64,000 nucleotides of DNA from Cryobacterium frigoriphilum (lineage in GTDB: Bacteria > Actinomycetota > Actinomycetes > Actinomycetales > Microbacteriaceae): contig NZ_SOHE01000006.1 of the NCBI RefSeq assembly GCF_004403305.1, positions 1 to 64,000 on the forward strand, read 5' to 3'. Below the pieces are notes generated by a model that was not told the origin of the DNA, did no database searches, and was given only the letters and a program-made list of their open reading frames with translations. Positions 25,692 to 38,056 of the stretch are shown piece by piece. Numbering within the stretch: the stretch's first letter is position 1; each line of letters starts with the position of its first letter. The translations under genes and the position numbers were made by a program.

Positions 25692-26585
25692 GTGATCGGC
25701 GTCATCCTCGCGCTCACCTCTGCCGCGGCCTACGGAGTCAGCGACTTCCTGGGCGGCCTCGCCTCTCGGCGGGTGGCCGCCCTGCGGGTGATCCTGGTCT
25801 CGTATCCGCTGTCGGCGATCATCGTGACCGTGCTCGCGGTGTTCGTCGGCGGAACGCCGTCGTGGCACGCCATGCTGTTTGGGGCGGCGTCGGGGGTGGC
25901 CCTGGCCCTGGCGATGTGGTGGTTCTACATCGCACTCGCCGAGGGCCCGATGAGCGTCGTCTCGCCCATGACCGCGGTACTCGTCGCCGGCATCCCGGTC
26001 ATCGTCGGTGTCGCCCTGGGCGAGCGGCCGTCGGTCGTCTCGTTCGTCGGGGTCGGCCTCGCGATCATCGCAGTGCTGCTGGTCAGCCGCGAACCGACGG
26101 ATGCCCCGGCCGGCCCAACGGTTGCCGGCACCCTCACGCCCGGCCACATGGCCCGGTCCGCCCCACGCTTCACTCGCCGCGTGGCCTGGTTCACGATCGG
26201 CTCCGGCACCTTCTTCGCGCTCGCGTTCATCTTCGTGCACCAGATCGAGGCCGGCACCGGGCTGTGGCCGCTGGTCGCGTCGCGGGGCGTGGCATCCGTC
26301 ATCGTGATCGCGGTGGCCGTGGCCACCCGGCAGCACGGCCTGCTGCCACGCGGCATCGTGGGTATCGCCGTGATCATCGCGCTGCTCGATGTGGCCGCGA
26401 ACGTGACCATGCTCTACGCCTTCCAGGGCGGACTGTTATCGCTGGTCAGCGTGCTGATCGCGCTCTACCCGGCGGTCACCGTGCTGCTGGCCGTGCTCGT
26501 GCTCAAGGAACGCGTCGGCCGGCTGCAAGTGGTTGGCATGGGGCTCGCGCTCGCGGCCATCGCGGCAATCGCCATCAACGGCTGA
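25692..26585 (+). CDS. EamA/DMT family transporter
   Basis: A 297-residue ten-helix DMT transporter with two EamA repeats (ALTSAAAYGVSDFLGGLASRR opening the first; WFTIGSGTFFALAFIFVHQ the second, ending VLVLKERVGRLQVVGMGLALAAIAAIAING). Start is GTG at 25692. It stands alone between the tct operon and the sigma-factor pair; substrate unknown. It shares family but little sequence with the transporter at 837. Confidence 0.85.
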   Translation: MIGVILALTSAAAYGVSDFLGGLASRRVAALRVILVSYPLSAIIVTVLAVFVGGTPSWHAMLFGAASGVALALAMWWFYIALAEGPMSVVSPMTAVLVAGIPVIVGVALGERPSVVSFVGVGLAIIAVLLVSREPTDAPAGPTVAGTLTPGHMARSAPRFTRRVAWFTIGSGTFFALAFIFVHQIEAGTGLWPLVASRGVASVIVIAVAVATRQHGLLPRGIVGIAVIIALLDVAANVTMLYAFQGGLLSLVSVLIALYPAVTVLLAVLVLKERVGRLQVVGMGLALAAIAAIAING

Positions 26586-26607
26586 GCCAAAACTTTTTTC
26601 TCGCGGC

Positions 26608-26636
26608 TGTCCTATCGGGCGGGGGCTGTTCGTTCC
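26608..26636 (+). promoter_or_regulatory. Candidate ECF42-type promoter
   Basis: TGTCCT (26608-26613), a 17-nt gap and CGTTCC (26631-26636) resemble the TGTCGA / CGTC boxes I recall for ECF42 promoters. It lies 55 nt before the DGPF gene, consistent with the sigma factor driving its own partner. Confidence 0.4.
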
Positions 26637-26643
26637 TAAGGTA

Positions 26644-26663
26644 GATCCATCATCCGATGGATC
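26644..26663. promoter_or_regulatory. Perfect palindrome in DGPF leader
   Basis: GATCCATC-ATCC-GATGGATC is a perfect 8-4-8 palindrome, 28 nt before the DGPF start and just after the proposed promoter. It could be a repressor site or an RNA hairpin. Confidence 0.5.
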
Positions 26664-26690
26664 CCCACGAAGAACCGTGAAGGAGCAATC

Positions 26691-27101
26691 ATGCCCAGCT
26701 ATGTCGCACTCATCTACACGCCCGACGTCGATTGGAGCGCCCCCGAATACGCCGGTGAGATGGCCGAATACGGCGCCTTCGGCGAAGCGGCCGCGAGCGT
26801 CATTCGCGGCGGTGCCGCGCTGTACCACACGCCCACCGCGACGACCGTGCGGGTCACCGGCGGCAAGGGCGGCGACGTCGTGCTCAGCGACGGCCCATAC
26901 GCCGAGACCAAGGAGGCCCTCACCGGCTTCTACCTGCTCGAGTGCACCGACCTCGACGAGGCCATCAGGGTCGCGTCGATGATCCCCGGCGCTTGGAACG
27001 GCGCCGTCGAGGTGCGTCCGGCGCTGCCGATGACGGCGCCGACGGATGCCGACGCGTCGGCCCCGGGTGCGGAAGCGCGCCCGACATCGGTCACCACCTG
27101 A
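26691..27101 (+). CDS. YCII/DGPF domain protein, ECF42 partner
   Basis: A 136-residue DGPF protein of the YCII superfamily. MPSYVALIYTPDVDW opens the domain, VLSDGPYAETKEALTGFYLLEC carries the DGPF/Y-type signature, and a disordered Ala/Thr-rich tail of ~30 residues follows. Such proteins are the standard partners of ECF42 sigma factors; their chemical role is unknown. GAAGGAG precedes the ATG. The sigma gene starts one base after the stop. Confidence 0.88.
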   Translation: MPSYVALIYTPDVDWSAPEYAGEMAEYGAFGEAAASVIRGGAALYHTPTATTVRVTGGKGGDVVLSDGPYAETKEALTGFYLLECTDLDEAIRVASMIPGAWNGAVEVRPALPMTAPTDADASAPGAEARPTSVTT

Positions 27102-27102
27102 C

Positions 27103-28359
27103 GTGAGTGCTGCCGGGGCCGACCCCGCCCGCGCCCCGCACCTCGACGAGCCGACCGGGCTCGCCGAGGTGCTGCGGCGTGAACGGCGGCAGGTGCTTGC
27201 CTCGCTGACCCGGCTCACCGGCAACCTCGACGTCGCCGAAGACGCCGTGCAGGAGGCCTCGATCATCGCCCTCGCGACCTGGCCGCGCACCGGGCTGCCG
27301 CCCAATCCGCGGGCCTGGCTGATCGTGGCCGCGAAACGACGGGCCATCGATGAGCTGCGCCGGGAAGCCACCCGGCCAGGCAAAGAGAGGGAGGCGATCA
27401 CCCTGGCCCTGCAATGCGCCCCCGATGACTTTTCCGTCGGGGTGCTGCGCGACGATCAGTTGCGCCTCATCTTCACCTGCTGTCACCCCGCACTCGCGCC
27501 CGAGGCGCAGGTCGCCCTGAGCCTGCGCGTGCTCTGCGGCCTCAGCGTCGCCGAGGTCGCCCGGCTGCTGCTGGTGCCGGAGGCGACCATGGCCAAACGC
27601 CTCACGCGAGCGCGGGGCAAGATCGCGGCCGCGGGCATCCGCTACCGGGTACCCGACGCGGCTGACCTGCCCGAACGGATGCGCCTGGTCGCCACGAGCG
27701 TGTTTCTGCTGTTCACCGAGGGCTACGCCTCGCGCTCGGCCGGGCTGCATGAGCGGCGCCAGCTCGCCGAGGAGGCCGTGCGGCTCGGCCGGCTGCTCGT
27801 GGCGCTGCTGCCGGGGGAGGCCGTGCTCGAGGGGCTGCTCGCGACGATGCTGCTGCAGCACTCACGCCGCGATGCCCGCTTCGACGAGGCCGGGGACATC
27901 GTGCTGCTCGCCGATCAGGACCGCGCCCGGTGGGACCGCGCGCTCGCCGCGGAGGGCGTGACGCGGGCGGCCGAGGCCATCCGCCTGAGCAGCGTCGTGC
28001 CGGAGCGCTTCGCGGTCGTCGCGGCGATCGCGGCCTGTCATGCCCTCGCAGCGGATGCCTCAGCCACCGACTGGAGCGCGATCGTCGCCTGGTACGACGT
28101 GCTCGTCGTGCTCGACGCGAGCCCGGTGGTGCTGCTCAACCGGGCCGCGGCCGTCGCCGAAACCGGCCAGACCGTGCTCGCCCTCGAGCAGGTCGAGGCG
28201 CTCACCGGGCTGGAGGGCTACTTCTGGTGGCATGCGAGCCGCGCGGAACTGTTGCGGCGCCTCGGCCGGCCGCGGGAGGCATCCGCCGCCGCCGCCGTGG
28301 CCGCCGGCCTCACGGAAAGCGCCGCCCAGCGCCGCCTGTTGGCCCGCCGCTACCCCTGA
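27103..28359 (+). CDS. RNA polymerase sigma factor, ECF42 type with TPR-like extension
   Basis: A 418-residue ECF sigma factor. Region 2 covers about residues 25-95 (LTGNLDVAEDAVQEASIIAL ... PNPRAWLIVAAKRRAIDELRR) and region 4 about 135-185 (LSLRVLCGLSVAEVARLLLVPEATMAKRLTRARGKI). The remaining ~220 residues are the helical C-terminal extension typical of ECF42, which controls activity; no separate anti-sigma gene is present. GTG at 27103 is right after the DGPF stop, so the two are coupled. Confidence 0.9.
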   Translation: MSAAGADPARAPHLDEPTGLAEVLRRERRQVLASLTRLTGNLDVAEDAVQEASIIALATWPRTGLPPNPRAWLIVAAKRRAIDELRREATRPGKEREAITLALQCAPDDFSVGVLRDDQLRLIFTCCHPALAPEAQVALSLRVLCGLSVAEVARLLLVPEATMAKRLTRARGKIAAAGIRYRVPDAADLPERMRLVATSVFLLFTEGYASRSAGLHERRQLAEEAVRLGRLLVALLPGEAVLEGLLATMLLQHSRRDARFDEAGDIVLLADQDRARWDRALAAEGVTRAAEAIRLSSVVPERFAVVAAIAACHALAADASATDWSAIVAWYDVLVVLDASPVVLLNRAAAVAETGQTVLALEQVEALTGLEGYFWWHASRAELLRRLGRPREASAAAAVAAGLTESAAQRRLLARRYP

Positions 28360-28363
28360 GCTT

Positions 28364-28467
28364 GCCGCCGCGTGGCGAATGCAGGACGGATTGCGTGTTC
28401 GTCGGCACAAGCAGGATGAATTGGCCTGTTTTCGCGGTCAGGTCCTGCTTTCGCCACACGTCGGCGG
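28364..28467. repeat. Long inverted repeat between convergent genes
   Basis: Left arm GCCGCCGCGTGGCGAATGCA then GGAC (28364-28386), right arm GTCCTGCTTTCGCCACACG then TCGGCGG (28442-28467). The 55-nt middle contains smaller complementary words (GCAGGATGAA, GGTCCTGC). It fills almost all of the gap between the sigma gene and purQ. Confidence 0.7.
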
Positions 28468-28479
28468 CGGGGAGAGGTG

Positions 28480-29178
28480 TTAGGCGTTGACGAGGGCGCG
28501 GGCGATGACCGAGGTGAAGAAGGTGAGACCGTCGACGCCGCTCGACATCGCCTGAGCGGTGTCGGGGCCGAAGCCGGCCTCGACCGCGTGCTCGGGATGC
28601 GGCATCAGGCCCACGACGTTGCCGCGGGCGTTCGTGACGCCGGCGATGTCGCCCAGCGACCCGTTCGGGTTGACGCCGATGTAGCGGGCCACGATGCGGC
28701 CCTCACCCTCGAGCCGTTCCAGCGTCTCACTGGAGGCCATGAAGGAGCCTTCGCCGTTTTTGAGCGGGATGGTGATTTCCTGGTTGGCCGTGAAACCGGT
28801 CGTCCAGTCGCTCGTCGAGTTCTCGATGCGCAGTTGCTGGTCGCGGCAGATGAAGCGGCCGGCTTCGTTGCGGATCAGACCGCCCTCCAGCAGGTGCGCC
28901 TCGGTCAGCATCTGGAAGCCGTTGCAGATTCCGAGCACGGGCATGCCGCCGTTGGCCGCGTCGATGACCTCGGCCATGATCGGCGAGAGGCTCGCGATGG
29001 CTCCGGCACGCAGGTAGTCGCCGTAGCTGAACCCACCCGGCAGCACGAGCGCGTCGACACCGTGCAGGTCGTGCTCGCCGTGCCAGAGGGCGACCGGCTC
29101 GGCGCCGGCGAGGCGGATGGCGCGCTGGGCGTCCCGGTCGTCGAGCGAGCCGGGAAAGGTGACGACGCCGATGCGCAC
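28480..29178 (-). CDS. purQ: Phosphoribosylformylglycinamidine synthase glutaminase subunit PurQ
   Basis: A 232-residue class I glutamine amidotransferase that supplies ammonia to Pur[16 protein letters not shown] holds the oxyanion region, the nucleophile is Cys in [12 protein letters not shown], and the His-Glu pair is in MPHPEHAVE near the C-terminus. GTG at 29178 overlaps the purS stop by one base. Confidence 0.96.
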
Positions 29179-29453
29179 TAGTTGACCGCCGCAGCCGCCG
29201 CGACGGACTCGACGACGTGGATGCCCACGACGTCTTCGATCACGGAGTTGGAGAGCACGGAGTCGGCGAGTTCGGTGACGGCGGCGAGGGCCGCGGCATC
29301 CGCCGGTCCGTCAACGGTGATTTCGAAACGCTTGCCGACGCGCACGGCGCTGAACTGCGTCTGGCCGAGGCGGCCGAGGGCCCGGGCGACGGCCTTGCCC
29401 TGCGGGTCCAGCAGCTCGGCCTTGGGCATAACTTCAACGACGATTACAGACAC
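29178..29453 (-). CDS. purS: Phosphoribosylformylglycinamidine synthase subunit PurS
   Basis: A 91-residue PurS, the small structural bridge between PurQ and Pur[29 protein letters not shown] and RVGKRFEI are the family pattern. About ten residues longer than usual at the C-terminus ([11 protein letters not shown]). First gene of purS-purQ. Confidence 0.92.
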
Positions 29454-29534
29454 GGTGCACTCCAGAAAGGCTCGAGGTGGCCAGAAAGGCTCGAGGTGAT
29501 TAGTTCGATTGTACAGGCCTGCGCTCCCGCCCGA

Positions 29535-29599
29535 TCAGACCGCCCGCTCAGACCGCCCCGCCGCTCTGCCCGCTCAGACCGCCCCGCCGCTCTGCCCGA
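29535..29599. repeat. Tandem duplication of the kynU 3' end
   Basis: The 26-bp unit TCAGACCGCCCCGCCGCTCT plus GCCCGA at the kynU stop (29574-29599) is repeated almost exactly downstream of the gene at 29548-29573, with a 13-bp partial third unit at 29535. The copies repeat the coding end and stop codon outside the gene. Confidence 0.85.
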
Positions 29600-30875
29600 T
29601 CAGGATGCCGCGCAGCACATCCCGAATCGCGGCGACGCCCTCGTAGGTCTCCACAAAGCTCGTGCTGAGCGGCGCGAGCCCGATGCGCAGGCCATCCGGC
29701 GCGCGAAAGTCGGGGATCACGTCGTTCGCCCAGAGAATCTCGGTCACCTGCCGCATCGACGGGTGGTCGATCGTGACGTGTCCGCCGCGGTGTGTGCTCT
29801 CCCGGGGCGAGGCCACCGTGACGCCCATTGGCGCGAGCCAGTCGTCGACGAGCGTGAGGGCGAACTCGGTCAGCGCGACCGACTTCGCCCGTACCTCCCC
29901 GATCGTGGCCTGCTCGATCATCGCGATGGTGTCCTGCATCGCGAGCATGCCCACGACGGCGGGCGTTCCGCTCATGAAGCGACGGATGCCGGTGGCCGGC
30001 ACATAGCCCGGCCCCATCAGGAAGATGTCCTGGGTGCCCATCCAACCCTGAATGGGCTGGGCGAGCACGTCCTGCAGGTCGCGGCGCACGTAGCCGAAGG
30101 CCGGCGCACCCGGGCCGCCGCTGAGGTATTTGTACGAGCAGCCGACGGCGAGGTCAACGTCGCAGAGGTCGAGTTCGACCGGGACCGAGCCGACGGAGTG
30201 GCTGAGATCCCAGAGCACGAGGGCGTCCTGGGTGTGGGCGACCCGGGTGATGGCGCGCATGTCGGCGAGAAAACCGGAGCGGTAGGCGACATGGCTGAGC
30301 AGCACGAGGGCGGTCTGCGGCCCGACAACGGCACGCACCTGCTCGGGTGTGACGCCCGCGGCAGGATCGCTCGTGATCCACCGCAGGGTGAGGCCGCGTT
30401 CGGCGGCGATCCCCTCGAGCACGTACCGGTCGGTGGGGAAGTTGTCGCTGTCGAGCACGATTTCGGTACGCCCCGGCCGGGCATCGACGGCGGCGCGAGC
30501 CAGCTTGTAGAGCAGCACGGTCGTCGAGTCGCCGACGAAGACCTGCCGTGGTCCGGCGCCGAGGGCCGCGCGGCCGAGGTCGTCGCCGATCTGCAGGGGC
30601 AGTTCCATCCACTCGTCGTCCCAGCCGCGAATGAGGCGGGTGCCCCAGGCGCCGGTGATGAACGCGGCGATGCGTTCGGCGGCCGCCTTCGTCGGGCGCC
30701 CGAGGGAGTTGCCGTCGAGGTAGGCGATCGGATTGGGGAGGGCGGCGGCCGGGTCGGCGCTGCCGTCGGCCACCGTGCCGATGAAGCGTGCCCGGTAGTG
30801 ACCGAGCCCGTCGATGCGGTCCTGCCGACGCGCGAACGCGAGGTGGCTGTCGGTGAGCGGAGCGGTCGGGGTCAT
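29574..30875 (-). CDS. kynU: Kynureninase
   Basis: A 433-residue PLP enzyme that splits kynurenine into anthranilate and alanine. YLDGNSLGRPTK, the IRGWDDEWMELP block, WDLSHSVGSVPVELD and the PLP lysine in GCSYKYLSGGPGAPAF are diagnostic, as is GWMGTQDIFLM. The start at 30875 is chosen because it gives an ATGA overlap with the amidohydrolase and the normal length. Last gene of the kynA operon. No anthranilate-degrading genes are adjacent. Confidence 0.95.
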   Translation of the reverse strand: MTPTAPLTDSHLAFARRQDRIDGLGHYRARFIGTVADGSADPAAALPNPIAYLDGNSLGRPTKAAAERIAAFITGAWGTRLIRGWDDEWMELPLQIGDDLGRAALGAGPRQVFVGDSTTVLLYKLARAAVDARPGRTEIVLDSDNFPTDRYVLEGIAAERGLTLRWITSDPAAGVTPEQVRAVVGPQTALVLLSHVAYRSGFLADMRAITRVAHTQDALVLWDLSHSVGSVPVELDLCDVDLAVGCSYKYLSGGPGAPAFGYVRRDLQDVLAQPIQGWMGTQDIFLMGPGYVPATGIRRFMSGTPAVVGMLAMQDTIAMIEQATIGEVRAKSVALTEFALTLVDDWLAPMGVTVASPRESTHRGGHVTIDHPSMRQVTEILWANDVIPDFRAPDGLRIGLAPLSTSFVETYEGVAAIRDVLRGILIGQSGGAV

Positions 30876-31849
30876 CGGAGGGCCTCTCGAGGGGCGGAAT
30901 CGGGCGCGGAATCGGGTGCGGGGAGGGGGCCGGACACGCTGCGGGCCGTGCACAACCAGTCGGCGAATGCCTGCCGGGAGGCGGGCCGTGGGCCGGCAAT
31001 TCGGGTGTGACGCAGCGCCGGCCCCCAGTCGATGCCGAGCGCAGCGCCGTCGTCATCAGACGTGAGCGTCGCGATCACGGCATCCGTCGACAACCCGGCG
31101 GCGAGCAGCGCGCCGATCTCCCGCCGATTCAGGCCCACCGGCAACGGCCCGTTTCCGAGGTCGGTGCCGTACAGCATCCGTCCGCCGTGGGCGTGAAACC
31201 GGCCCAGATTATCCACGGCGGTGTCGAATTCGCGGCTCGGCCGGCCCCAGCCGTGGATGTCGAGGGTGCTGATCCAGGTCATGCTCCCGGCCATCGCCGC
31301 GATCAGTTCGTCGTCGAGCCGTTCGCTGAACGGGGTGTGGGCGAAGGCGTCGACGCCGGCCGTGAACGCCCGCTGCGCCTGTCCCCGGCCCTGCGCGTGA
31401 ACGACCACGGTGACCCCGCGGTCGTGGGCGCGCCCGACGATCGCCGCGAGCACATCACCCGGGAAGACCGGTCCGGCAGCCGAATTGAGCGTGATTTTCA
31501 CGACGGATGCGCCTCCGGCGAGCTGCCGATCGACCGCGCCCGCCGCATCCGTCGCCCCGTTCCCCGGTGCGCCGCTGACCTCGCAGACGCTGCCGGGCGG
31601 CGCCCAGCCGGCCCGGCTCGGATATCCGCCCGGGGCGGTGAGCAACTGCCCGGCGCCGCGAACGCAGAGCCGGTCGGCGCCGGACGCGCCCGACCCGAGC
31701 CTCCAGCCACCGAGGTCGAGCACCCGGCTGATGCCGCCGGCCAGCAGCGCGGCCGGCGCCGCGGCATCCGCGAGGGCGAGGTGAACGTGGGCGTCGAGAA
31801 AACCCGGCAGCACGGTGTCGGTCGCGGTGCTCGGGCCGGCCGCTGTCAT
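30872..31849 (-). CDS. Metal-dependent amidohydrolase in the kynurenine operon
   Basis: A 325-residue amidohydrolase-superfamily protein with a complete metal site: His21 and His23 (FLDAHVHLA), a candidate carboxylated Lys118 (VVKITLN), His151 (VVVHAQG), His171 (FAHTPFS) and Asp230 (YGTDLGNG). It overlaps kynA and kynU by 4 nt on each side. The cluster needs an N-formylkynurenine formamidase between these two steps and has no KynB or alpha/beta-hydrolase type enzyme, so this protein is a natural candidate for that reaction. That role is inference; it could instead act on another cyclic amide or imidazolone. Confidence 0.8.
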
Positions 31850-32700
31850 GACCCGATTTCGGTGCGTACCGCGAACAGCTCGGGAAAGAAGGTGAGTTCG
31901 AGGGCCTTCTGCAGAAATGCGGCGCCGCTCGAGCCGCCGGTGCCGTGTTTCATGCCGATGATGCGCTGCACGGTCTTGAGGTGGCGAAAACGCCAGAGCT
32001 GAAAGTTATCCTCGAGGTCGACGAGTTCCTCACAGGCCTCGTAGGCGGCCCAGTTGTCGTCGGCGTTCTCGTAGATGCCGCGGAAGGTCTGCACGAGCTC
32101 GGCATGCAGCACCCAGGCCTCGGTCACGTCGCGCTCGAGCACGTCGGTCGGCACCGCGTACCCGGCGCGTGCCAGATAGCGCAGAAACTCGTCGTAGAGG
32201 CTCGGGGCGTCGAGCATCTCGGTCAGCAGGGCGTGCGCGTGCGGGTCGGACTCGAACACGCTCAGCATGCGCCGATTCTTGTTGCCGAGCGCGAATTCCA
32301 CGGCTCGGTACTGGTACGACTGGAATCCGCTCGAATTGCCGAGAAAGCCACGAAATTGGGCGTACTCGGTGGGGGTCAGCGTCGCGAGCACCGACCACTG
32401 CTCGGTCAGGGTGCGCTGAATGTGCTTGACCCTGGCGATGCGCTTCAGCGCGGGGGCGAGCTCGTCGCGGCGCAGCGACGCGGTCGCCGCTCGCAGCTCG
32501 TGCAGCACGAGTTTGAGCCACAGTTCGGTGGTCTGATGCTGAATGATGAAGAGCAGTTCGTCGTGGTGCTCCGGCTCGCTGACCGGTTTCTGGGCGCCGA
32601 GCAGGGTGTCGAGGTCGAGATAGGAGCCGTAGCTCATCCGCTGCCGAAAGTCGGTCACGATCTGCGGATCGAACTCTCGGGTGTTGTTCTCGACCGGCAC
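31846..32700 (-). CDS. kynA: Tryptophan 2,3-dioxygenase
   Basis: A 284-residue haem dioxygenase that opens the indole ring of tryptophan to N-formylkynurenine. His55 in [14 protein letters not shown] is the distal substrate-contact residue; the proximal haem His is in the C-terminal [17 protein letters not shown] region, followed by [11 protein letters not shown]. The GTG start at 32700 has CGGAG 6 nt upstream and gives the family length; an ATG further upstream (32742) is in frame but less likely. First gene of kynA-amidohydrolase-kynU. Confidence 0.95.
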
Positions 32701-32875
32701 GATAGCTCCGTTTCTGCTGCGCTGGCCCGGGCGTCGCGGCACGGGTCCTGCTCTGAATTGTGCGGGCTGACGCGCTCAGACGCAACACGGCGCGCACCAA
32801 TCGATGCCGGTGGCGGCGACACGCGGGCCCGCCGAAAACTATTCCACCAATCTGGGCGCGTGATACCACGACTCA

Positions 32876-32891
32876 CGGAGGTTTCCCTCCG
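32876..32891. promoter_or_regulatory. Operator candidate between kynA and tetR
   Basis: CGGAGG-TTTC-CCTCCG is a 6-4-6 palindrome, extended by ACTC/GAGT with a one-base gap, 34 nt before the tetR start in the 224-bp divergent region. It fits TetR autoregulation and perhaps control of the kyn operon. Confidence 0.45.
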
Positions 32892-32924
32892 AGTAACCCA
32901 GACACGGCACCTAGAATCGAGTCC

Positions 32925-33623
32925 ATGACTTCGTCCGCACGCGCGCCCCAGGACCGGCCGCAACCCCGGCGCCGTGACGCGCGGCAGAACCGGGAACGCC
33001 TGCTCACCGAGGCGAGAGCGCTGATCGCCGTCAACGGCGTCGACGCCTCCCTTGAGGAGATCGCCCGCCGCGCCGAGGTCGGCGTGGCCACGCTCTACCG
33101 CAACTTTCCGACCCGCGACGACCTCGTGCGCGCCCTCTACGATCTGGCCCTGGCCGAGCTCGCCGCCGTGCAGGGCGAAATCGCCGCCGCCGACACGGCG
33201 TGGGACGGTGTGGTCATCTACACCGAACGCGTCGCCGAATGGCTCGTCGCCGATCCGTCACTGCCACCGATTTTAAAGCGGATGTCCACCCTCGACCCCG
33301 GCGCCCGCCCCGGCACGGACTTCGAAGCCGTCATCGCGGCCCTCGTGGCTCAGGCGAAGAAAGACGGTGCCCTGCGCTCCGACGTCGACGCCGTGGACAT
33401 CGCCGTGCTCGTCACGATGGTCGGCTCGCTCGGTGGGCTCGGCGACGGCTACGCCGGCCAGTGGCGCCGGCAACTGGGCATCGTGCTCGACGGCCTGCGC
33501 GCCGCCGACAAGCCGCGTGCGAAGCTGCCCGGCCGCCCGCTCAAGGGCAAGGAATTTCAGGCCACCGTCTACGGGCTGACGCGGCGCGCGAAGCGTGCCG
33601 CCCGCGGTCCCGGCAAGGCCTGA
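32925..33623 (+). CDS. TetR family regulator, divergent from kyn operon
   Basis: A 232-residue TetR protein. After a ~20-residue polar lead (QDRPQPRRRDARQNRERLL) the HTH is SLEEIARRAEVGVATLYRNFPTRDDLV. The C-terminal ~25 residues are basic (RRAKRAARGPGKA), and the DNA for that tail is tandemly duplicated beyond the stop. Position suggests it may repress the kynA operon, but it could be unrelated. ATG at 32925 chosen to give a normal HTH offset. Confidence 0.85.
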   Translation: MTSSARAPQDRPQPRRRDARQNRERLLTEARALIAVNGVDASLEEIARRAEVGVATLYRNFPTRDDLVRALYDLALAELAAVQGEIAAADTAWDGVVIYTERVAEWLVADPSLPPILKRMSTLDPGARPGTDFEAVIAALVAQAKKDGALRSDVDAVDIAVLVTMVGSLGGLGDGYAGQWRRQLGIVLDGLRAADKPRAKLPGRPLKGKEFQATVYGLTRRAKRAARGPGKA

Positions 33624-33709
33624 CCGCAGCGCCAAGCGCGCCGCCCGTGGTCCCGGCAAGGCCTGACCGCAGCGCCAAGCGCGCCGCCCGTGGTCCCGGC
33701 AAGTCCTGA
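33581..33709 (+). repeat. 43-bp tandem repeats duplicating the tetR 3' end
   Basis: Two 43-bp units (33624-33666, 33667-33709) follow the tetR stop and match the gene's last ~40 bp, including the stop codon, with few changes. Each starts CCGCAGCGCCAAGCGCGCCG and ends in TGA. Because 43 is not a multiple of three, the copies change frame and cannot extend the protein. Confidence 0.88.
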
Positions 33710-34229
33710 CCCGCCTTCCGCTCAAATTCCGCCCGCCTCCCGCTCCGCTTCCGCTGGCGCGGCGGAACCCGCGAGGGCTCTCAGGACTGTGCGCCGCAAA
33801 GCTGCTCGTGCGGCGCAAACTGTCACACTGCTGCGCGGCTACGGCCGTTGATGCGCCCAAAAGCGGCGGCTACGACCGTCCTGCGCCCCAAAGCTGCTGA
33901 CGCGCCTCAAACTTGCACGCCGTCGTGCGCCTCAAAGCTGCTGATGCGGGCCAAACTTGCACCTCAGAACGGTCATGCGCCCGAAAACTGCACGTGCGCC
34001 TGGCAGGCCAGGCGCACGTGCAGTTTTTCCGCGCATGAAGAAACCGGGGCGCCGTCTTCGCCCGCACGTGCAGTTTTTCGGCGCACGAGCGCCCCGAGCG
34101 CAGGCGTCCTGGTACTGGCACTGGCACCGACGAACGGAATCCGGCCGCACGGTCACCTTTGACGGGAAATCGCAAGCCGCACCGGTAGTCGAACCGAAAC
34201 GTCGCCGCACCGAAACACCAGCGCGGTGG
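33710..34229. other. 520-bp noncoding stretch rich in GCGCC...AAA repeats
   Basis: No credible gene is present. From about 33787 to 34090 the motif (A/G)TGCGCC-NN-AAA followed by CTGC or CTTGCAC occurs about eight times in both orientations (for example near 33789, 33859, 33888, 33929, 33976 and reverse copies near 34010 and 34065). It lies between convergent tetR and the catE-like gene. It may be a decayed set of hairpin elements. Confidence 0.6.
33984..34027. terminator. Strong hairpin with T-run
   Basis: AAAACTGCACGTGCGCCTGG (33984-34003) is exactly complementary to the arm at 34008-34027 with only CAGG between, and TTTTT follows. Outer bases ATGCGC / GCGCAT extend it. It should stop transcription coming from the tetR side; the A-run makes it usable in reverse as well. 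Confidence 0.75.
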
Positions 34230-35102
34230 TCAGTGCGCGGCACGCACCAGGATGCGGTTCGCCCAGGGGTCGTCGAAGCCGAGGGTCTGCCCGTCGTGAC
34301 GGGTCGGCACGCCGTAGTGCGACATCCGCTCGCTGAGGGAGCCGAGGTCGTCGGCGCCGGGCACGATGATGCTGACCTCGCCGAGTCCGAGCGCGAGACG
34401 GCGGCGGCCGGCGCCCTGGCTCTGCCAGGTGTTCATCGCCATGTGGTGGTGATAGCCGCCGGCCGAGACGAACAGGGCGCTCGGGCCGAAGTTCGCGGTG
34501 GCCTCGAAGCCGAGTCGGTTCACGTAGAACTCGCGGGCGCTGGCCACGTCGCCGACCGAGAGGTGAATGTGCCCGACCGTGGCGGGGCCGTGGCTTGAGC
34601 TCGCGGCCGCTGCTTCGGTGAGGTGCTCGCCGATGAAGGCGTTCGGATCGAGCGCGAGGGTCGCCATTTCGACCTGGCCGTGGGTCCAGCTCCACAGCGT
34701 GCGGTCGCGGTCCCAGTACAGCTCGATACCGTTGCCCTCCGGATCGGTGAAGTAGAAGGCCTGGCTGACCAGGTGATCCGCGCTGCCGGTGAAGGTGCCC
34801 GGATGCTTCGTGCCGACCGAGTAGACGGCCTTCGCGAGCTCCGTCTGCGTCTCAAAGAGAATTGCGGTGTGAAACAGGCCGGCCGAGCGGGGCTCGGCGG
34901 CGGCGAGTTCGGGGGCGTGCTGCAGAATCACGATCGGCGTCGTGCCTCGGCCGAGCACCGCGACGGGGCCGTCGTGGCTGATCAGGTCGAGGGTCACCGC
35001 GTCGCGGTAATAGGCGATGAGGGCATCGAGGTTACCGGCGCGCAGAGTCACGGCGCCCATGCCGGTGTCGGCGGCGAGCAGGTCTGTTCGAGTGGTGTTC
35101 AC
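34230..35102 (-). CDS. Two-domain VOC (glyoxalase/extradiol dioxygenase) protein, CatE-like
   Basis: A 290-residue protein with two vicinal-oxygen-chelate modules, like Bacillus CatE-type ring-cleaving enzymes. Module 1 (about 10-130) includes LFHTAILFETQTELAKAVYSV and DPEGNGIELYWDRD with the metal Glu; module 2 (about 168-285) includes VGHIHLSVGDVASAREFYVNRLGFE and YHHHMAMNTWQ. His-His-Glu metal ligands can be placed. Substrate unknown; a catechol is the family guess. Close to the kyn operon, but anthranilate is not its direct substrate. Confidence 0.75.
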   Translation of the reverse strand: MNTTRTDLLAADTGMGAVTLRAGNLDALIAYYRDAVTLDLISHDGPVAVLGRGTTPIVILQHAPELAAAEPRSAGLFHTAILFETQTELAKAVYSVGTKHPGTFTGSADHLVSQAFYFTDPEGNGIELYWDRDRTLWSWTHGQVEMATLALDPNAFIGEHLTEAAAASSSHGPATVGHIHLSVGDVASAREFYVNRLGFEATANFGPSALFVSAGGYHHHMAMNTWQSQGAGRRRLALGLGEVSIIVPGADDLGSLSERMSHYGVPTRHDGQTLGFDDPWANRILVRAAH

Positions 35103-35228
35103 GGTGATGTCAACGGATGCCGCGCCCCGGCTATTCCGACGCCGCGCCCCGATCTGACCCCCGTTGTGGACGAGCGCCGCGCCGCGCCCGGCCCCGCTCG
35201 ATGCGGCTGCGGGGCCAGCGCTGCCGGC

Positions 35229-35606
35229 CTAGTCCTGGTGGAGCTGAATGTAGTTTCCGCATCCGTCGTCGAAGACGGCCGTGGTGCCCGAGAAATCGGT
35301 GCTCGGAGCGCTCTGGAAGTACACGCCGAGGGCGCGCAGCCGGTCGTACTCGGCCTGCACGTCGGGGGTGCCGAACACGATCGCCGGGATTCCGAGGCGG
35401 TGCAGGCCGCTCTGGTAGGCCTTGGCGACCTTGGTGTCGCTCGGCTCGAGCAGCAGCCCTGGGCCGGTGGGGTCGTCGGGGGCCCGCACGATGTAGAGCG
35501 CGTGCTCCGGCATGCGCATGAGCTCGGTGAAGCCGAGCAGCTCGGTGTAGAACGTGAACGCGGCGGAAGGATCGTCAACGTGAACGCTGCACATCTTGAT
35601 TCTCAT
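35229..35606 (-). CDS. Single-domain VOC family protein
   Basis: A 125-residue glyoxalase/bleomycin-resistance-fold protein: MCSVHVDDPSAAFTFYTELLGF opening strand-helix and FDDGCGNYIQLHQD closing strand. It has His in the first strand (CSVHVDD) and a Gln rather than the usual metal-binding Glu near the end (NYIQLHQ), so metal catalysis is doubtful; it may act as a dimeric binding protein. ATG at 35606; a longer frame upstream has no family likeness. Confidence 0.75.
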   Translation of the reverse strand: MRIKMCSVHVDDPSAAFTFYTELLGFTELMRMPEHALYIVRAPDDPTGPGLLLEPSDTKVAKAYQSGLHRLGIPAIVFGTPDVQAEYDRLRALGVYFQSAPSTDFSGTTAVFDDGCGNYIQLHQD

Positions 35607-35694
35607 GAGGTCGACAGTACCGGGCGCCGCCGACATCCGGGCCCGGGAACCGGCCGGGCCGACATCCGGGGACATGCCGCCGGGGCGCCGGAGG

Positions 35695-36645
35695 CTACGC
35701 GGCGGTGAGGCGCTCGAGCAGCTCGTGGTATCGGGCCGCGGTCTGCTCAACGATCTCGGGTGGCAGCAGCGGCGGGATGCCGGTCTCGTCCCAGTTGGCC
35801 GCGAGCCAGTTGCGCACGATCTGCTTGTCGAAGCTCTCCATGCGCGCCTCGGGCGTCGCCGCGCTCTGCCAGCTGGCGAGGTCCCAGTAGCGACTCGAAT
35901 CACTCGTGAGCACCTCGTCGGCGAGGGTCGTGACGCCGGTCTGCCGGTTCGCGCCGAACTCAAACTTGGTATCGGCGAGAATCACGCCGGCCGCCTCGGC
36001 GATCGTCGACGCCGTGCGGTACAGCTGAAGCGAGAGGTCGCGCAGCTCGGCCGCGACGACCGGGCCGACGAGTTCGACGGTGCGCTCGAAGCTGATGTTC
36101 TCGTCGTGCTGGCCCATCGGGGCCTTCCAGGCGGGGGTGTAGATCGGCTCGGGCAGGCGGTCGCCGTTCTGCAGCCCGGCGGGCAGCGCGATGCCGCACA
36201 CCGATTGCGACACGAGGTATTCCTTGAAGCCGGAGCCGGTGAGATACCCGCGCACGACGCACTCGATCGGAAACATATCGAGGGTGGAGCAGAGCATCGC
36301 ACGCCCGGCGACCTCGGCCGGAATCAGGGCGCGCACGGTGTCGCCGACGAGCTCGTGGTCGGCCACGAGGTGGTTGGGTACGTCGGTGAGGCGGTCGAAC
36401 CACCACAGGCTCAGCGTCGTGAGCAGCTCACCCTTGCCGGGGATTCCCGGTTCGAGCACGTGATCGAACGCGCTGACCCGGTCGCTGGCGACGACGAGCA
36501 CGCGGGCGGCGCTCGCGAGGTCGGCCGGGGCATCCGCTTCTGACGCCGTAGTGGGAACGTACAGGTCGCGCACCTTGCCCGAATAGGCGTGGTGCCATCC
36601 GGCGAGCGGGCGGGTGGGCTGCTGAAGGGAAGTCACGGTCCCCAT
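35695..36645 (-). CDS. purC: Phosphoribosylaminoimidazole-succinocarboxamide synthase
   Basis: A 316-residue SAICAR synthetase, joining CAIR and aspartate with ATP. YSGKVRDLY, SDRVSAFDHVL, CVVRGYLTGSGFKEY, GQHDENISFE and DTKFEFG are conserved signatures. It lies 60 nt downstream of purD on the same strand, so purD-purC is likely one operon. Confidence 0.96.
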   Translation of the reverse strand: MGTVTSLQQPTRPLAGWHHAYSGKVRDLYVPTTASEADAPADLASAARVLVVASDRVSAFDHVLEPGIPGKGELLTTLSLWWFDRLTDVPNHLVADHELVGDTVRALIPAEVAGRAMLCSTLDMFPIECVVRGYLTGSGFKEYLVSQSVCGIALPAGLQNGDRLPEPIYTPAWKAPMGQHDENISFERTVELVGPVVAAELRDLSLQLYRTASTIAEAAGVILADTKFEFGANRQTGVTTLADEVLTSDSSRYWDLASWQSAATPEARMESFDKQIVRNWLAANWDETGIPPLLPPEIVEQTAARYHELLERLTAA

Positions 36646-36705
36646 TCTCCCGCATCCGCTCTCGCTCGCGCGATTCGGCCAGGCGAGGCGGGTAACTCAG
36701 GCAGC

Positions 36706-37971
36706 TCAGGCGACGCGGGCCGCGATGTCGGTGCGAAACTGTGATCCGGCGAGGGTGACGTGGCCGAGGGCCTCGTAGGCGCGGGCGCGGGCCTCGGCGA
36801 AATCGGCTCCGACGGCGACGACGCTCAGCACCCGGCCGCCGGTCGACACGAGCGCGTCGCCCTGCAGCGCGGTCGCCGCGTGCGCAATCGTGACGCCGCC
36901 GACGACGGATGCCTCGGCCAGCCCCGTAATCTCGCGCCCGGTTGCCGGGGTGCCCGGGTAATTCTCACTCGCGAGCACGACGGTCACGGCCACCTCAGAC
37001 GAGAATTCGGGCCACGGCAGGGCGGCCAGGCCGCCGGTCGAAGCCGCGAGCAGCAACTCGGACAGCGGGGTCACGAGGCGCGGCAGCACGACCTGCGTCT
37101 CGGGGTCGCCGAAGCGCGCATTGAACTCGATGACGCGGATGCCGTCTTTCGTGAGGATCAGCCCACAGTAGAGCAGCCCGACGAACGGGGTGCCCTCCCG
37201 CGCGAGCTGCGCGATCGTGGGCAGAGCGACGGTCTCGATGATCTCGCCGATGAACGCCTGCTCGCTGCCAAACTCCGCGTCGAGCCAGGGCAGCGGGGAG
37301 TACGCGCCCATGCCGCCGGTGTTCGGGCCGGCGTCGTTGTTGCCGAGACGCTTGTAGTCCTGCGCGGGGGAGAGCGGCCGCACGGTCACGCCGTCGCTCA
37401 GCAGAAAGAGGGAGATCTCCTGGCCGTCGAGAAACTCTTCGATCAGTACGCTGCCGTGCTCGAGCCAGAACACGGTGTGGTCGATCGCGGCGGCGCGGTC
37501 TTCGGTGACGAGCACGCCCTTGCCGGCGGCGAGGCCGTCGGCCTTCACGACGTAGGGCGCACCGAACTCGTCGAGGGCCGCTTCGGCCTCGGCGAGGGTG
37601 CCGGCCCGCACGGCACGGCCGGTGGGCACGCCGGCCTCGTGCATGATGCGCTTGGCGAACGTCTTGCTGCCCTCGAGGGCGGCGGCGGCCTGGCTCGGCC
37701 CGAATACCGGGATGCCGCGTTCCCGCAGCGCGTCGGCGACTCCGGCGACGAGCGGTGCCTCCGGACCGATCACCACGAGGTCCATCGCGTGCTCGACCGC
37801 GTACGCGGTCACGGCGGCCGGGTCGTTCGCGTCGAGCGGCACCACGGGAACGTCGGCCGCGATGCCGGCGTTGCCGGGGGCGGCCGTGATCGCGTGCCCG
37901 GGGCTCTCGCGCAGCAGGGCGGTAATGATGGCGTGCTCGCGGGCACCGGAGCCGAGTACAAGAATTCTCAC
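36706..37971 (-). CDS. purD: Phosphoribosylamine-glycine ligase
   Basis: A 421-residue GARS, ligating glycine to phosphoribosylamine. N-terminal VLGSGAREHAI, then the ATP-grasp domain (YVVKADGLAAGKGVLV, DAGPNTGGMGAYSP, RVIEFNARFGDPETQ). Divergent from the sterol-carrier-like gene across ~85 bp, an arrangement common in actinobacteria. Confidence 0.96.
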   Translation of the reverse strand: MRILVLGSGAREHAIITALLRESPGHAITAAPGNAGIAADVPVVPLDANDPAAVTAYAVEHAMDLVVIGPEAPLVAGVADALRERGIPVFGPSQAAAALEGSKTFAKRIMHEAGVPTGRAVRAGTLAEAEAALDEFGAPYVVKADGLAAGKGVLVTEDRAAAIDHTVFWLEHGSVLIEEFLDGQEISLFLLSDGVTVRPLSPAQDYKRLGNNDAGPNTGGMGAYSPLPWLDAEFGSEQAFIGEIIETVALPTIAQLAREGTPFVGLLYCGLILTKDGIRVIEFNARFGDPETQVVLPRLVTPLSELLLAASTGGLAALPWPEFSSEVAVTVVLASENYPGTPATGREITGLAEASVVGGVTIAHAATALQGDALVSTGGRVLSVVAVGADFAEARARAYEALGHVTLAGSQFRTDIAARVA

Positions 37972-38056
37972 CGGTTCAGGTTACCGGATGCTTGGCGCTC
38001 GCCCCCTGTCGGGCGCCTCGGCCGGGCCTGCGCCCGCGATCGGGCAGACTGGAGCC

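Follow-up and report, generated by a model that had tools for sequence, protein, structure and literature searches.

The gene that lies between kynA and kynU in Cryobacterium frigoriphilum, here called amh, very probably encodes the N-formylkynurenine formamidase of a three-gene operon, a predicted metal-dependent member of the amidohydrolase superfamily. This reading of the sequence is based on gene order, conservation of the metal ligands, fold prediction, co-occurrence with the neighbouring genes and the pattern in which amh is replaced in relatives. The operon would turn tryptophan into anthranilate and alanine, with KynA making N-formylkynurenine, Amh stripping off the formyl group and KynU cleaving the kynurenine; in relatives that lack amh, an alpha/beta-hydrolase KFase would fill the same slot. 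We also consider it likely that amh represents a third, unrelated class of formamidase, a shortened amidohydrolase that forms a single clade in three or more families of its order within the Actinomycetota, has kynU-linked sisters elsewhere in the phylum and alternates from genome to genome with the alpha/beta-hydrolase enzyme. Deformylation in Cryobacterium-like bacteria and in many related actinobacteria seems to be carried out by a metal enzyme of a family not known for this step.

The kyn locus

The window, i.e. the whole stretch of 64,000 nucleotides that was analysed, contains the following features.

31846..32742, minus strand: kynA, tryptophan 2,3-dioxygenase (TIGR03036, 404 bits, cut-off 390.7; PF03301, Trp_dioxygenase, 208 bits)
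30872..31849, minus strand: amh, compact 325-residue amidohydrolase, candidate N-formylkynurenine formamidase (Amidohydro_1 match, invariant ligands, AlphaFold2 model)
29574..30875, minus strand: kynU, kynureninase (PF22580, KYNU_C, 89.8 bits, cut-off 27; TIGR01814, 218 bits, below its cut-off of 246.4)
31846..31849, minus strand: ATGA common to the kynA stop and the amh start (sequence)
30872..30875, minus strand: ATGA common to the amh stop and the kynU start (sequence)
32760-33623, plus strand: TetR-type regulator, divergent, upstream of kynA

On the minus strand the order is kynA, amh, kynU, and the three open reading frames, linked by ATGA overlaps, are presumably co-transcribed. The preliminary description of this DNA gave amh a 4-nt overlap with each neighbour, and the overlaps are real, as ATGA is read at both joins. 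The start of kynU is best taken as the ATG at 30875 in preference to the longer frame from 30953, and the true start of kynA may be internal to the annotated frame. The window neighbours scanned around the operon include purine genes, two glyoxalase-like genes, a sigma factor, a YCII protein and an EamA transporter, and no AMP ligase, NRPS or halogenase is among the nine genes scanned. Scans for promoters and terminators near the operon gave no hit, and neither did Rfam at gathering scores in positions 26000-38000. The end of the TetR gene carries tandem 43-nt repeats, and the intergenic stretch that follows contains direct and inverted copies of a GCACGTGCAGTTTT-like motif, with 82-nt arms that are 73% complementary (window 33600-34098).

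Amh family, metal site and predicted fold

Amh matches PF01979 (Amidohydro_1) with 30 bits against a curated cut-off of 25, and no NCBIfam model reaches its cut-off on the protein. It had been described as unlike the KynB and alpha/beta-hydrolase formamidases, in agreement with which the Pfam scan gave no match at E<=0.001 to PF04199 or to an alpha/beta-hydrolase family, and the NCBIfam scan none at E<=1 to TIGR03035 (KynB). The complete metal site noted earlier is borne out by an alignment of 39 sequences (the window protein included; members 42-75% identical to the window Amh), in which His21, His23, Lys118, His151, His171 and Asp230 are invariant, along with Y76, P77, W82, N214, Y227-G228-T229-D230, G232-N233-G234, N241 and E244. 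On the strength of this conservation, Tyr76, Trp82, Asn214 and Asn241 are predicted to line or approach the pocket. The six ligands are also kept in six further rows from the order, 11 sister-clade rows and four outgroup rows, and, except for one Asp, in nine more distant rows; beyond the order N241 and H199 vary while the metal ligands stay, one Asp apart. Asn122 was dropped as a conserved pocket residue, as it is Asn in most family rows and His in those of families f9 and f16.

A set of HxH, Lys, His, His and Asp marks the binuclear amidohydrolase subtype with a carboxylated bridging lysine. We propose a mechanism for Amh in which the chemistry is taken wholly from the amidohydrolase superfamily. 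Two metal ions would be bridged by carboxylated Lys118 and a hydroxide, the latter acting as the nucleophile on the formyl carbon. The proton would go to Asp230 and from there to the leaving aniline nitrogen, upon which formate and kynurenine would be released.

The AlphaFold2 model of Amh (pLDDT 90.4, pTM 0.89) matches the folds of 3be7, 9kov, 2qs8 and 3mtw with Z 27-28 over 285-296 residues. By Foldseek the closest solved folds are a Thermonema amidohydrolase, arginine carboxypeptidases, an Xaa-Pro dipeptidase and ochratoxin A amidohydrolases (Z 26-28), and a sequence-profile search agrees with the fold search on the nearest solved relatives. The Cc2672 L-Lys/L-Arg carboxypeptidase (3mtw), the Zn-dependent arginine carboxypeptidase (3be7) and the Xaa-Pro dipeptidase (2qs8), all with an Amh-like fold at Z 27-28 and 21-23% identity, act by name on peptides. 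The ochratoxin A amidohydrolases hydrolyse an amide; by sequence profile ADH3 (8ihq, E 8e-18), LlADH (9l2t, 1e-17) and ochratoxinase (4c5y, 9e-7) are among the closest solved relatives of Amh, ADH3 and ochratoxinase being close by fold also (Z 26-27, 18-24% identity), although these enzymes have about 400 residues or more and Amh has 325. Only 20 residues precede the HxH of Amh, and the f16 loci L130 and L131 have just 32 and 24 open codons ahead of it, whereas the relatives in families f25, f31 and f47 have room upstream of HxH for the usual N-terminal stretch. Judging from these lengths, the kyn-clade proteins seem to be without the N-terminal half of the usual beta sandwich.

Gene order and phylogeny

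The order kynA-amh-kynU, in one direction, was found at 24 of the 30 loci of a first family set, comprising the best 30 family matches with the own locus included, and at 29 of 30 Cryobacterium/Glaciibacter loci. Together this makes 53 of 60 loci, or 52 of 59 distinct ones, as a single locus was entered twice (L002 of genome G078 and L036 of Cryobacterium sp. PH31-O1). The amh proteins of the 60 loci are 43-76% identical to that of the window, and the closest named relatives come from Cryobacterium and Glaciibacter. At each of the six misses in the first set only two of the three genes were found within about 1.5 kb on each side, and the one miss in the second set (L059) is cut by a contig end. 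All six ligands are complete at 59 of the 60 loci, a contig end again accounting for the exception. Within the order, families f9 and f16 also have the three genes grouped (L113, L116, L124, L125 and L132). In a quick tree the 46 order-level amh sequences, most but not all of them from kyn operons, form one clade with an SH-aLRT support of 100, and its sister group comes from families elsewhere in the phylum (f31, f66 and f70).

The sole NCBIfam match of Amh, to an Xaa-Pro dipeptidase model at 51.5 bits against a cut-off of 500, might be taken to mean that it is an ordinary Xaa-Pro dipeptidase-like amidohydrolase that sits in the operon by chance. The gene order in three families of the order and the single well supported clade make this reading extremely improbable; because the order kynA-amh-kynU is conserved, a mere chance neighbour was rejected.

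Across the phylum loci L141-L165 a KynU-like match lies near the amh relative in nine of 25. Three of these nine were scanned with profiles, of which one (L162, the same locus as L180) has a kynureninase over cut-off beside the amh relative (TIGR01814, 273 bits) and the two others give KYNU_C at 40-42 bits. Among the 50 phylum genomes outside the family that carry an amh relative (E<=1e-20), the only ones to which this count applies, Trp_dioxygenase was found in 30. In these distant families the amh relative follows uvrB in two of the three upstream genes scanned (L180 and L181; not L170), with a kynureninase near it in L180 and a KynU-like gene near it in L181.

Co-occurrence of amh with kynA and kynU

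The family sample comprised 150 genomes, the own genome included. In this sample amh (strong at E<=1e-30) is present in 42 genomes, one of which, G141, holds a remnant, kynA is present in 52 and kynU over cut-off in 91. kynA was found in 37 of the 42 genomes with amh compared to 15 of the 108 without (Fisher p 1e-17), and kynU in 42 of 42 compared to 49 of 108 (p 5e-12). In an order sample of 297 genomes, which overlaps the family sample, Trp_dioxygenase occurs in 22 of 24 genomes with amh above 150 bits and in 75 of the 273 others (p 5e-10). These p-values overstate the association because related genomes are treated as independent, and the replacement pattern described below is the stronger argument.

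Five of the 42 family genomes have amh without kynA. In three of them (G004, G035 and G110) amh adjoins kynU, and in the other two (G034 and G109) hundreds of kb separate the two genes; two f16 genomes (G211 and G322) likewise have amh-kynU without kynA. A role that depends on KynA alone does not account for such genomes; N-formylkynurenine taken up from outside or formed from oxidised tryptophan would, as would a substrate linked to kynU. Amh could act on N-formylanthranilate, produced with alanine when KynU splits N-formylkynurenine or salvaged from indole oxidation. That amh tracks kynU more tightly than kynA in the counts above, that it adjoins kynU in the five kynA-less genomes just named as adjoining, and that a distant phylum family has an amh relative beside a kynureninase over cut-off (L180) are all in line with this. 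However, amh lies between kynA and kynU in the 53 syntenic loci (for which the order itself was the criterion), relatives without amh have in the cluster a gene whose product is akin to a kynurenine formamidase of known structure, and kynureninases prefer kynurenine as substrate. We consider N-formylanthranilate a very unlikely substrate on this evidence and favour N-formylkynurenine.

Replacement of amh by an alpha/beta-hydrolase enzyme

Canonical kynA is present in 44 family genomes (including G106, whose kynA is in two pieces), 37 of which have amh, decayed in one, and seven of which do not. A KFase homologue at E<=1.5e-14 was found in none of the 37 and in six of the seven (p 1e-6), the cut-off having been chosen after the hits were seen, so that it just admits the two-piece match of G009, without which the count is five of seven. 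Weaker KFase matches occur in three genomes that have both kynA and amh (G028, G041 and G075). The six carriers are G009, G138 and four genomes in which the KFase gene is inside the kyn cluster, where it comes after kynU (L092 and L095), before kynA (L093) or after kynA (L096). The cluster hydrolases of L092, L093 and L095 belong to the Pfam family BD-FAE, and that of L096 is 54% identical to that of L092. With a profile of the four, the solved kynurenine formamidase 4e11, which we take to be the Drosophila enzyme, is the second-best PDB match (E 2e-14), behind a carboxylesterase. Within the family, genomes differ in which of two unrelated enzymes occupies the slot, as a shared function predicts.

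The window genome has no PF04199 protein, no TIGR03035 match and no KFase homologue at E<=1e-6. A search for a hidden KynB or KFase in this genome found neither, as the KFase profile gives only six alpha/beta-hydrolase matches, all weak and partial and none above 28.5 bits. It had been suggested earlier to check whether genomes with this gene lack kynB, and the outcome is favourable, with exceptions. The KynB cut-off was reached in one of the 150 family genomes (G019, outside the 42 with strong amh), a lower bound because some actinobacterial KynB may score below the cut-off. Of the 37 genomes with kynA and amh, 12 are without any PF04199 protein and 25 hold some, which could in principle be unrecognised KynB. 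Overall, PF04199 is about as common with amh as without it (25 of 42 genomes compared to 71 of 108, p 0.57). A PF04199 protein of about 225 residues in five amh-positive genomes (G028, G076, G103, G139 and G141) is a weak candidate for KynB, scoring about 80-93 bits against the KynB cut-off of 223 and not being among the kyn genes in the loci listed, where its neighbours presumably resemble agmatinase, permease and aminotransferase; it may nevertheless be a formamidase.

Exceptions to the pattern

The rule that amh occurs with kynA and kynU and alternates with KFase has as its exceptions the five kynA-less amh genomes, G141, G084 and eight small genomes. In the Cryobacterium genome G141 an amh remnant lies between kynA and kynU (L107:3177-3611), which is without the first metal histidine and breaks off at about residue 145, so that deformylation there is dispensable or covered otherwise. 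A natural loss of this kind could help to uncover a back-up formamidase. In G084, which has kynA but not amh, there are a generic KFase match (8.9e-7) and a PF04199 protein below the KynB cut-off. The eight small genomes have a divergent kynA and neither amh nor KFase, with a PF04199 protein in two and none in six, which indicates that kynA can persist without any recognised formamidase. In one of these small genomes (G013, L103:3769-4620) a patatin-like gene (PF01734; RssA-like, under cut-off) lies between the divergent kynA and kynU; it was not seen at this position in four other small genomes read (L102, L104, L105 and L110) and is possibly another candidate for a non-canonical enzyme in the slot.

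In other families of the order, 19 amh-negative kynA neighbourhoods were read. Four of them have a KFase homologue close to kynA (L247, L249, L251 and L252), and neither KFase nor KynB was found near kynA in the remaining 15, where the KynB query was one protein (that of G019), so that a divergent KynB beside kynA could escape. A kynA without a linked, recognised formamidase therefore appears to be common.

These exceptions bear on the possibility that Amh is not needed for deformylation, which would be spontaneous or fall to a PF04199 protein or some general hydrolase, and that Amh serves a side reaction of the pathway instead. Such a reaction might concern a dipeptide or an N-acylated form of kynurenine or anthranilate, serve detoxification, or close a ring as condensing amidohydrolases do. 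G141, which keeps kynA and kynU with a decayed amh, the eight small kynA genomes without amh or KFase and the 15 of 19 neighbourhoods without a linked formamidase would all be accommodated by a side role, and the nearest solved relatives of Amh are dipeptidases, arginine carboxypeptidases and ochratoxin amidohydrolases. According to one report, aryl substrates of this type are used by NatAM and other condensing amidohydrolases (PMC12118335). A side role does not, however, predict that KFase is found in 0 of 37 genomes with amh and in six of seven without. Moreover, the window genome is without both known formamidase types, as far as the profiles see, and the nine scanned neighbours include no AMP ligase, NRPS or halogenase. 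We hold a side role to be very unlikely, and deformylation of N-formylkynurenine by Amh is the reading that we retain.

Relation to known enzymes and implications

KynB (PF04199 / TIGR03035) belongs to a different family, and Amh is predicted to share with it both the reaction and the slot in the pathway. KynB too is a metal hydrolase, and it arrives at the products predicted for Amh with a binuclear zinc centre in a fold other than that of Amh (PMC4243253). The alpha/beta-hydrolase KFase, whose reaction Amh is likewise predicted to catalyse, is a serine hydrolase of another fold, whereas Amh is predicted to be metal-dependent. Two non-orthologous enzymes for the deformylation step, an alpha/beta hydrolase and a cyclase, were distinguished in the available portion of an evolutionary analysis of 2014 (PMC4217691).

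There is a precedent from another pathway that contains TDO and kynureninase; the amidohydrolase MymD/MyeD of the mycemycin pathway was proposed in 2018 to deformylate N-formylkynurenine, and, in the available text of that study, the proposal rests on annotation and on a deletion that abolished the product, deformylation itself being unassayed there (PMC5867642). The proposal stays open because condensing amidohydrolases of other clusters close benzoxazole rings, according to the accessible part of PMC12118335. MymD/MyeD has 513 residues compared to the 325 of Amh. In the literature covered, which leaves most subscription journals outside, we found no assayed N-formylkynurenine formamidase of the amidohydrolase superfamily and no work on the amh family.

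If our proposal is true, amh would be the main formamidase of its bacterial family, being present in 37 of the 44 genomes with canonical kynA while KynB over cut-off is found in one of 150. A third class would fill a gap in the tryptophan catabolism of these bacteria, pathway reconstructions could score such genomes as complete, and the deformylation step would be a clear example of convergence, with three unrelated folds for a single small reaction.

A second, higher-scoring type of kynureninase C-terminal domain was observed, at more than 125 bits, in six family genomes (G019, G051, G073, G086, G121 and G142). In G019 the KynB over cut-off, the sole one among the 150 family genomes, adjoins kynU, and this kynureninase is of the second type.
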